From Candidatus Blautia stercorigallinarum (lineage in GTDB: Bacteria; Bacillota; Clostridia; Lachnospirales; Lachnospiraceae), in contig DXIQ01000035.1 in the NCBI GenBank assembly GCA_019112785.1, positions 1-49,794 of the forward strand: DNA of 49,794 nucleotides, in the 5' to 3' direction. The notes under the pieces were generated by a model that had not been told where the DNA came from, searched no databases, and saw only the letters and a program-made list of their open reading frames with translations. Shown here in pieces: positions 24,719 through 26,126 of the stretch. Numbering within the stretch: the first letter of the stretch is position 1; every line of letters starts with the position of its first letter. Both the position numbers and the translations under genes were made by a program.

Positions 24719-25744
24719 TCAGGGTGTCTCCGTTTCCATGGTCTTTCCGAAAAACGCCGTAGTCTTCTTTACCTTTTCCATCAGATCAGCAAAACTTTTG
24801 GGCGTAAGAGACTGTTTTCCATCGCAGAGAGCTTTTTCCGGATTATTGTGCACCTCGATCATAACTCCGTCTGCTCCGGCGGCAATAGCTGCCATAGTAA
24901 GAGGTTCCACCATAAAACGGATACCTGCCGCATGACTGGGATCCACGATCACCGGAAGATGGGTCTTAGACTTCAGCATGGGAATGGCGGATATATCCAG
25001 TGTATTTCTCATGGAAGTCTCAAAAGTACGGATGCCTCTTTCACAGAGGATCACCTGTTCATTTCCCCCTGCCATAATGTACTCTGCACTCATAAGCAGC
25101 TCTTCCAGTGTATTGGCCATGCCTCTCTTTAAAAGAATGGGCTTGCGGATCTTTCCCAGCTCTTTGAGAAGCTCAAAGTTCTGCATATTTCTGGTTCCTA
25201 CCTGGATCACATCCACATTTTCAAACAAAGGCAGATGTTCTGCGCTCATGATCTCGGTCACAATGGGAAGTCCCGTGGCTTTTTTTGCTTCCAGAAGCAT
25301 TTTCAGTCCTTCGCTGCCCAGTCCCTGGAAAGAGTACGGGGAAGTTCTTGGCTTAAAAGCCCCTCCTCTTAACAGTCCGGCTCCGGCCTTCTGGACGTCA
25401 AAAGCTACCTGGGTCATCTGCTCTCTGGTCTCCACAGAACAAGGGCCTGCGATCACCTGGAAATATCCTCCGCCGATCTTTCTGCCGCCGGCTTCTATGA
25501 CAGTATCTTTGGGGTGCATGGCCCTATTGGCTTTCTTGTAAGGCTCATTGATCCTCTTTACGGATTCGATCACGTCAAGAGCACTCAGCCACTCCTCGTC
25601 TACCTCCGTGGTATCTCCGATCAGTCCGATCAGAGAAGTATTCATTCCTTCGGAGAGATGAAGCTTCAGCCCCATATCCGTCAATTGTTTTTTTAATTCC
25701 TCTACTTTTTTCTGGTCCGCATTGTTTTTTAATACAAGAATCAT
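24719..25744 (-). CDS. aroF: DAHP synthase, type I-beta
   Basis: The enzyme (EC 2.5.1.54) joins phosphoenolpyruvate and erythrose 4-phosphate, the first step of aromatic amino acid synthesis. The 341 residues contain an N-terminal ferredoxin-like (ACT-like) extension (about 1-70), which in Thermotoga-type enzymes gives feedback inhibition, followed by the TIM barrel with IAGPCSVE, GGAFKPRTSPYSFQG, QVGTRNMQN and DPSHAAG motifs. It is preceded by a Tyr/Phe-rich leader peptide and a terminator (25765-25926), so it appears to be controlled at both enzyme and transcript level. The ribosome site is AGGAGG. Confidence 0.95.
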   Translation of the reverse strand: MILVLKNNADQKKVEELKKQLTDMGLKLHLSEGMNTSLIGLIGDTTEVDEEWLSALDVIESVKRINEPYKKANRAMHPKDTVIEAGGRKIGGGYFQVIAGPCSVETREQMTQVAFDVQKAGAGLLRGGAFKPRTSPYSFQGLGSEGLKMLLEAKKATGLPIVTEIMSAEHLPLFENVDVIQVGTRNMQNFELLKELGKIRKPILLKRGMANTLEELLMSAEYIMAGGNEQVILCERGIRTFETSMRNTLDISAIPMLKSKTHLPVIVDPSHAAGIRFMVEPLTMAAIAAGADGVMIEVHNNPEKALCDGKQSLTPKSFADLMEKVKKTTAFFGKTMETETP

Positions 25745-25764
25745 GTTTTTTCCTCCTATAAACT

Positions 25765-25800
25765 GAAAAAGCCGGTGCCTGCTGCTGCAGACACCGGCTT
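25765..25800 (-). terminator. Attenuator terminator before aroF
   Basis: On the minus strand AAGCCGGTG pairs with CACCGGCTT and is followed by TTTTT, just before the aroF ribosome site. Its loop contains CTGCAGCA (25783-25790), which is perfectly complementary to TGCTGCAG (25838-25845) near the end of the leader peptide gene. That pairing would break the upper part of the hairpin and act as antiterminator. Confidence 0.85.
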
Positions 25801-25824
25801 ATCTCTATGGACAGCGCCTTCCTC

Positions 25825-25926
25825 TCAGGGAATTTTTCTGCAGCAAAAAGAACCTGCGCCGTAAAAGCCCAGGAAGCAGTAATAAAAATAAGAATTTCTA
25901 TTTCCGCAAAGAATCTGCTGCATCAT
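25825..25926 (-). CDS. Tyr/Phe-rich attenuation leader peptide for aroF
   Basis: A 33-codon frame starts at ATG-ATG (25921-25926), about 30 bases after the predicted transcription start. It encodes four Tyr and four Phe within residues 13-27 (SYFYYCFLGFYGAGSF) and stops 24 bases before the terminator hairpin. Three complementary segments are present: TGCAGCA over codons 2-4, TGCTGCAG over codons 28-30, and CTGCAGCA in the terminator loop. This is the 1:2, 2:3, 3:4 scheme of ribosome-mediated attenuation. Stalling at Tyr or Phe codons would favour 2:3 and read-through. The ribosome site (AGAAAGG, about 13 bases from the ATG) is weakly placed. The frame is open to 26007, but the promoter excludes that start. 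Confidence 0.75.
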   Translation of the reverse strand: MMQQILCGNRNSYFYYCFLGFYGAGSFCCRKIP

Positions 25927-25962
25927 GTCACTGTACCAGCCTTTCTGTTTTAAGTTATCCCT

Positions 25963-25991
25963 ATCATATCCTGTGGAGACCTTTTTGTCAA
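25963..25991 (-). promoter_or_regulatory. Promoter of the leader peptide and aroF
   Basis: TTGACA (25986-25991, perfect) and TATGAT (25963-25968) on the minus strand have a 17-base spacer. Transcription should begin near 25956. Confidence 0.8.
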
Positions 25992-26046
25992 CAGAAAATT
26001 TTAGCAATTTAAAGCGTAACAGCGATAAGATTTAACGAAAAAGGAA

Positions 26047-26075
26047 TTGTCAGTATAGAATATGTCTCTTATAAT
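26047..26075 (+). promoter_or_regulatory. Promoter of the moxR operon
   Basis: TTGTCA (26047-26052) and TATAAT (26070-26075) have a 17-base spacer, about 50 bases before the moxR start. Confidence 0.75.
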
Positions 26076-26126
26076 GGAATCAGAATATAAACGGTTTTTA
26101 GAATTATTGTCAAAGGAGTAATCAGC

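Follow-up and report, generated by a model that had tools for sequence, protein, structure and literature searches.

The aroF gene of Candidatus Blautia stercorigallinarum is preceded by a short reading frame rich in Tyr and Phe codons and by a terminator. This raises the question whether a translated leader switches the gene, as had been proposed in an initial annotation of the window (the whole stretch of 49,794 nucleotides analyzed here).

Structure of the aroF upstream region

Read directly from the sequence, the minus strand carries a promoter, a 33-codon frame, a terminator hairpin, the motif AGGAGG and aroF in this order. Promoter, frame and terminator lie where the initial annotation had placed them. 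The individual features are:

25999..26016, minus strand: AT-rich motif CGCTTTAAATTGCTAAAA just 5' of the promoter, candidate operator or UP element (TTTAAAn(3-6)TAAA in 19/19 Blautia loci)
25963..25991, minus strand: sigma-70-type promoter TTGACA-17-TATGAT, 11 of 12 consensus positions; hexamers read directly, TTGACA at 25991-25986 and TATGAT at 25968-25963, 17 nt apart
25940..25946, minus strand: AGAAAGG, read as a possible RBS of the leader frame, at a rather long distance of 13 nt from the first ATG
25825..25926, minus strand: leader frame MMQQILCGNRNSYFYYCFLGFYGAGSFCCRKIP, 33 codons and stop (ATG 25926, TGA 25825)
25915..25922, minus strand: segment 1, which may pair with segment 2 if no ribosome is present (MFE fold; weak covariation)
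25861..25890, minus strand: putative control codons 13-22, Tyr Phe Tyr Tyr Cys Phe Leu Gly Phe Tyr (from the sequence)
25853..25873, minus strand: hairpin P within the coding region, 4 bp, a G.G mismatch and 3 bp (fold, covariation)
25836..25855, minus strand: segment 2 (core TGCTGCAG, 25838-25845), 5' side of the antiterminator (duplex energies, pair counts)
25766..25800, minus strand: intrinsic terminator with T5, segments 3 and 4 (hairpin scan; pair counts on the alignment)
24719..25744, minus strand: aroF, DAHP synthase with a ferredoxin-like regulatory domain (PF00793, PF18152; NF006421, TIGR01361)

The aroF gene starts at 25744 and encodes a B. subtilis-type DAHP synthase. The nearest named records, 96-97% identical in aroF, belong to Candidatus Blautia pullistercoris, Candidatus Blautia stercoripullorum and Blautia sp. 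An81. Downstream of aroF is a gene for a DNA topoisomerase (PF01131), and upstream of it a divergent gene for a MoxR-type ATPase.

From the position of the promoter, transcription would be expected to start at approximately 25956. A regular expression found the promoter pattern in all 19 Blautia loci; in the window's own locus (L001) it took another upstream match, and the motif scan gives 25963..25991. The scan for promoters and terminators was permissive (in 1801 bases, 6 promoter-like sites versus a mean of 2.4 and 4 terminator-like sites versus 1.9), so the weight is carried by conservation and not by the scan. The leader RNA of 197 nt folds with a z-score of -4.83 relative to 200 dinucleotide shuffles. 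Together with the conservation in the genus, measured against shuffles (see below), this indicates that the leader did not arise by chance.

The TTTAAA motif upstream of the promoter is possibly the site of a regulator or an UP element. Its distance to the -35 hexamer is 5-8 nt in 13 loci and 19 nt in L017-L019, i.e. about one helical turn further. In L001, L012 and L016 the regular expression paired other copies, and the distances taken by eye are 8, 7 and 19 nt. A regulon sharing this motif was considered and rejected, as the organism's own genome contains 9 matches versus 8 for the reversed control, which is no excess.

The leader frame

Residues 13-27 of the leader peptide contain four Tyr and four Phe within 15 residues, exactly as first noted. 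A longer open reading frame of 60 amino acids starts at 26007. This wrong start had been anticipated in the initial annotation as the one a gene caller might choose; it lies 5' of the promoter, which makes the 33-codon reading the sensible one. A search of the peptide against NCBIfam returned no family.

Segment 2 is located 11-18 nt upstream of the leader stop codon, so that a ribosome terminating there would, by this geometry, sit over segment 2. Codon 22, the last Tyr codon of the cluster, ends 15 nt before segment 2; a ribosome stalled on it should therefore leave segment 2 approximately free. The footprint sizes used for this geometry are general values. Phe27 touches segment 2 and, from its location, is probably kept for pairing rather than for sensing.

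Counts of changes by codon position (in cluster 1), which are no formal coding test, gave no plain excess at third positions. Changes at second positions dominate, which fits an exchange between Phe and Tyr codons.

Conservation in Blautia

We searched 20 genomes of the genus and examined 19 loci. Loci L020-L022 were left out (aroF is split in two in genome G001, and G009 has a second, partial homologue). The aromatic frame is present in all 19 loci with 33-38 codons and 8-10 Tyr/Phe residues each, typically in the pattern YxxYLGYFYxAGxFCC. A terminator-like hairpin followed by a run of T is likewise found in 19/19. The initial annotation had named the absence of a conserved frame or aromatic cluster in relatives as its refutation. 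This refutation fails: frame, cluster and terminator do recur in every genus locus and also in loci of other genera (see below).

For a strict criterion, we demanded at least 6 Tyr/Phe within 12 residues of a 10-60 codon frame, followed by a terminator. It was passed by 18 of the 19 loci and by 0/380 dinucleotide shuffles; the nineteenth, L012, reaches 5. That the frame arose by chance before an ordinary terminator is therefore hardly credible. AT-rich upstream DNA does yield Tyr/Phe-rich frames in 2-3% of shuffles, but the frame with a following terminator appeared neither in these 380 shuffles nor in the 1760 of the family survey described below, and conservation with covariation contradicts a chance origin as well.

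Terminator and antiterminator

The terminator stem (25800-25769) consists of 14 bp closed by a 4-nt loop and is followed by T5 at 25770-25766. In alignment A1, 100% of its cells are paired, and three pairs show changes on both sides. A second alignment, A2, with 59 matches of which some were on the wrong strand, was excluded from all counts. Three complementary segments had been described at this locus, namely TGCAGCA (25916-25922), TGCTGCAG and CTGCAGCA (25783-25790), and all three are found at these positions. The last one had been assigned to the terminator loop. This holds for its AGCA half, whereas the CTGC half belongs to the 5' arm of the terminator.

The duplexes 1:2 and 2:3 and the hairpin 3:4 were computed for the 19 genus loci, bearing in mind that the program always returns some pairing, which is no proof by itself. 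With one sequence for each of six clades, the native 2:3 (antiterminator) pairs had the lowest total energy among 720 clade permutations. The native partner was the best in its row for only two and in its column for three of the six clades. Out of 500 mononucleotide shuffles of the second segment, 0-6 reached the native 2:3 energy in five clades; in L016, 45 did. For the 1:2 pairing, 29 of the 720 permutations were at least as good as the native one, and 1-17 of 500 such shuffles reached the native energy in five clades and 51 in L001, the window's own.

The antiterminator core (six pairs) is paired in 96.4% of the cells of alignment A1. Eight cells are changed on both sides, from GC to AU in three sequences and from CG to UA in five. 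None of 500 shuffles reached the cells paired, the cells changed on both sides or the covariation score, while 198 matched the count of pairs with changes on both sides and all 500 that of pair types. Relative to every slid register, cells paired, double changes and covariation score are all higher in the native one. The extended antiterminator is paired in 89.8% of cells, its third helix in only 76.3%, and the AUG-proximal 1:2 pairing in 74.3%. The extended antiterminator uses bases of both terminator arms. Antiterminator and terminator exclude each other, with the reservations from the row, column and shuffle comparisons of 2:3 standing.

The geometry of ribosome-mediated attenuation asserted at the outset is supported in so far as antiterminator and terminator both covary. 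For the proposed set of three exclusive segments the result is divided: the 2:3 pairing and the terminator covary, whereas the pairing of TGCAGCA with segment 2 is weakly supported, and a hairpin inside the frame is a better supported competitor of segment 2.

Spacer-terminator complementarity was ranked for each leader among 61 sequences (the native one and 60 shuffles). The native sequence was in the best four for 13/18 genus leaders, 14/21 family leaders and 24/51 named leaders (from the best 80 of 549 named relatives), or 21/46 of the latter without five Blautia records, where about three would be expected by chance. L081, L083 and L219 have no usable spacer and were counted as misses. This complementarity is absent from the Acetobacterium-type leaders L191, L197 and L207.

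A hairpin within the coding region

Hairpin P, which the initial annotation lacks, surfaced when an alignment-derived model placed a helix inside the coding region. In the window its sequence is CCUG-G-GCU...GGC-G-CAGG. Compensatory variants occur within the genus (CCCA/UGGG in L013, GUUAU/AUAAC in L016-L019), and the outer stem reads UCCG/CGGA, CCAG/CUGG, UCAG/UUGA, CUGG/CUGG or CUUG/CAAG in other genera. In alignment A1, 97.3% of its cells are paired and three pairs are changed on both sides. Terminator and P together are paired in 98.9% of cells with six pairs changed on both sides; four of five measures were reached by 0/500 shuffles and the fifth (pair types) by 6/500.

P with G opposite G was found in 19/19 genus leaders and in 40/49 leaders in all, compared with 448/4900 mononucleotide shuffles. 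The G.G criterion was set after P had been seen, so that the pair counts for terminator and P are the cleaner test. Furthermore, the 30 leaders from outside the genus came mostly from model R1, which contains P, and this biases the set towards P. Scoring P with any mismatch was discarded as uninformative (score of at least 9 in 40/49 leaders versus 364/1470 shuffles, and just 20 of these 40 leaders had G.G), since it picked up unrelated stems; P was separated from these once G.G was required. The 3' arm of P overlaps the extended antiterminator, and the overlap is confined to the outer part of the latter.

P might itself be a small element that binds a ligand or a protein and controls the terminator, with the frame being secondary. 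Its presence in 40 of 49 leaders with 16 different combinations of outer-stem sequence would fit such an element. We consider this very improbable, as the Anaerostipes leaders L159 and L161 have long aromatic runs without P, and P is located inside the frame, where it overlaps the control codons.

The requirement for P at the RNA level explains why the peptide keeps [LPQW]G...AG. In a similar way, the C-terminal CC of the peptide corresponds to TGCTGC of the antiterminator. Owing to a slid frame, AA or AM stands in place of CC in L041 and L046, yet the RNA TTTTTGCT is preserved, which indicates that selection there acts on the RNA and not on the peptide. These observations bear on the reading that the frame is the gene of a functional small protein, rich in aromatic residues and Cys and perhaps membrane-associated, with the terminator merely setting the level of aroF. 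The recurrence of the pattern [LPQW]G[YF][FY]YxAGxFCC across genera could be taken as a sign of such a protein. Its LG...AG and CC positions, however, fall on covarying RNA helices, the slid frames keep the RNA, the peptide has no NCBIfam match, and distant leaders have little in common beyond the aromatic run. This makes a small protein very improbable.

Equally slight is the probability that we assign to nascent-peptide arrest of the TnaC kind, in which free Tyr or Phe and not codon starvation would be the signal. The conservation of residues other than the aromatic ones would speak for it, but these residues change at sites of covarying RNA pairs, a given position may hold a Phe codon in one leader and a Tyr codon in another (as read from the alignment), and the aromatic run stays where other parts of the peptide differ.

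T-boxes and other known RNA elements

Covariance-model searches of positions 25700-26100 returned no T-box and no Rfam amino-acid leader family at E-values up to 5, and the weak matches present there are to unrelated RNAs. At the gathering score, only a tRNA matches in the window. A T-box or another known RNA at the aroF locus was rejected on these grounds. The organism's own genome has 16 T-box matches, 13 of them over the cut-off. They precede pheS, tyrS, trpE and a trpB-like gene among others, and none precedes aroF. For the organism's own pheA, no T-box match was found on its contig, and an aromatic leader was rejected (within 420 nt, the best short frame contains three Tyr/Phe in 12 residues, with no terminator after it).

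We also scanned 20 family loci that fail the leader criterion, hand-picked with terminator-bearing ones first, and found a T-box before aroF in four of them (L089, L093, L100 and L111). These four represent a swap of the sensor at aroF. A T-box thus controls this gene in some relatives, and a leader peptide seems to do so in others. A T-box reads a single tRNA, and a leader frame can hold codons for two amino acids. If the entry to the pathway must answer to two amino acids, this would be the reason for a leader on aroF.

Distribution beyond the genus

With strict filters, by which weak matches are lost, model R1 matched in 16/299 genomes of the family, belonging to 15 genera, and in 13/392 genomes of the order, including two further families. 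In the latter, leaders were found before aroF in L237, L238, L239 and L240, and L241 has one before pheA; MNRICELTAKFYTFFFSWGYFYFSAGYFCCKQN is an example of these frames. L237 has five Tyr/Phe in 12 residues, the gene at L239 was named by eye, and a terminator was looked for at L241 and not found. The frame is present in L242, its gene being beyond the end of the locus. A match in a third family (L243) was not counted, since by eye it resembles the tail of an ABC-transporter gene.

An aroF of this type is encoded in 136 of the 299 family genomes (E up to 1e-60). We surveyed 88 further upstream regions from this set, chosen largely in order of descending score, though a few were passed over; L104 comprised only 207 bases. 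By the strict criterion 22 loci passed, of which L078 was dropped by hand as the tail of a coding gene, leaving 21/88 leaders compared with 0/1760 shuffles of these loci. Among the best 80 of 549 named relatives, 51 pass the same criterion, the shuffle control covering the 88 family loci only. The positives among these 80 include Blautia, Anaerostipes, Marasmitruncus, Marvinbryantia and Acetobacterium as well as Lachnospiraceae and Oscillospiraceae assemblies. Failing or excluded were 67/88 family loci and 29 of the best 80 named ones, and L163, L179, L203 and L221 are failures that resemble leaders below the cut-off. As the family and named sets share some genomes, the 90 positives correspond to 84 distinct upstream regions.

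Both Tyr and Phe occur in the cluster of 82 of these 84 leaders, and Trp in addition in eight. Distant leaders, e.g. MSKIVNAAAYYFYFYFTFTNGKVCSCFAAY, have the aromatic run and the terminator in common and little else. A quick tree of aroF (127 rows, with L012 added to the leader group by hand) requires 19 changes of the leader label, compared with a mean of 33.9 for shuffled labels.

Several related arrangements were observed as well. In three other genomes (L042, L051 and L241) a similar leader precedes pheA, the gene for prephenate dehydratase. At L054 and L244:1832-2028, a match to model R1 with an aromatic-rich frame and a hairpin lies before the gene of an HMGL-like enzyme, which is no known aromatic gene; the enzyme resembles 4-hydroxy-2-oxovalerate aldolase with a match below the cut-off. 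Genome G114 has two copies of aroF (L044 and L055), both preceded by an aromatic leader, and the two leaders differ in sequence. In Acetobacterium and related organisms (L191, L197, L207, L211 and L222), a leader of the NEYYYVNTQSYWFFSFGYF type with Tyr, Phe and Trp precedes aroF. Judged by their codons, leaders of this type perhaps sense three amino acids.

Proposed mechanism

Frame and aromatic cluster are supported by the comparison of loci, as are terminator, antiterminator core and hairpin P. In our reading, aroF is very probably controlled by ribosome-mediated transcription attenuation in response to uncharged tRNA-Tyr and tRNA-Phe. That the leader is translated and stalls the ribosome, which way aroF responds, what P does and that both amino acids act are inferred, as follows. 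The transcript would begin at approximately 25956, and the 33-codon leader would be translated as RNA polymerase advances. With ample Tyr and Phe, the ribosome would reach the stop codon and cover segment 2, the terminator (25769-25800) would form and transcription would end at approximately 25766. If Tyr- or Phe-tRNA is short, the ribosome would stall on codons 13-22, thereby melting or covering the 5' arm of P. Segment 2 would then be left free to pair with the terminator sequence as antiterminator, and aroF would be transcribed. Because both Tyr and Phe codons are used, the leader could sense either amino acid. In the trp leader, a polymerase pause lets the ribosome catch up; by analogy, P possibly acts as a pause site of this kind.

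We also put forward, tentatively and as somewhat less likely to be right than wrong, a broader view, in which these leaders form an undescribed, Clostridia-wide family of leader RNAs that commonly controls the entry to aromatic biosynthesis. Such a leader would be an OR sensor for two amino acids, unlike the single-tRNA T-box, and would have been exchanged with T-boxes at the same gene in the course of evolution. In Lachnospirales it would be built round the coding-region hairpin with the conserved G.G mismatch, which may pause RNA polymerase until a ribosome has caught up.

Gut Clostridia produce or consume aromatic amino acids in their host; if the mechanism is correct, the committed step of this pathway has a defined switch in them. 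The present genome is then a test case, since it has T-boxes for pheS, tyrS and trpE and seems to use the translating ribosome for aroF, the suggested explanation being that two amino acids can be sensed simultaneously by one leader peptide. With the conserved coding-region hairpin there is also a defined element that can be mutated. RNA family libraries could take up the family, which would stop small-protein callers from naming such frames as proteins.

Comparison with known systems

The leaders of E. coli pheA, trp and his combine control codons, an antiterminator and a terminator. The Blautia aroF leader follows the same logic. It differs in that no Rfam amino-acid leader family matches the locus at E-values up to 5. 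The pheL and trpL leaders are also treated in PMC11802643. This review describes, in addition, the aroR leader before aroF of Corynebacterium glutamicum (Neshat et al. 2014), which is reported there to respond to Phe and not to Tyr. As in our proposal, a leader peptide (Phe-Tyr-Phe) precedes the operon of a DAHP synthase, and ribosome stalling raises transcription. Unlike Blautia, C. glutamicum is an actinomycete, and three aromatic residues are named in the description, on which alone the two leaders are set side by side.

A candidate from another group is the uORFC-13-1 motif (PMC8632094), with 24 examples described only from Acholeplasma and environmental sequences. It is similar in that aroF of Acholeplasma is preceded by a terminator and by a predicted uORF containing one or more Phe codons; its description, from which the likeness to the Blautia leader is drawn, names no Tyr codons. 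According to the same source, attenuation of E. coli aroF had been hypothesized earlier.

Leader-peptide attenuation in the T-box-rich Firmicutes is described for hisS/hisZ of Bacillus (PMC2965389) and for ilv of S. aureus and Listeria (PMC5794164, PMC5864092). These resemble the Blautia leader in phylum and in the mechanism proposed for it and differ in amino acid and gene. A survey of Actinobacteria reports trp, cys, ilv and leu leaders. Among the open-access papers listed in literature searches, none describes a leader peptide on aroF for Lachnospiraceae or other Clostridia. The initial view of a Tyr/Phe leader on aroF as little described accordingly holds for Clostridia within these papers, and has to be qualified by the aroR leader and the Acholeplasma candidate, which are both in print. 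The mechanism as such is known already; the clostridial leader family and its breadth appear to be new.
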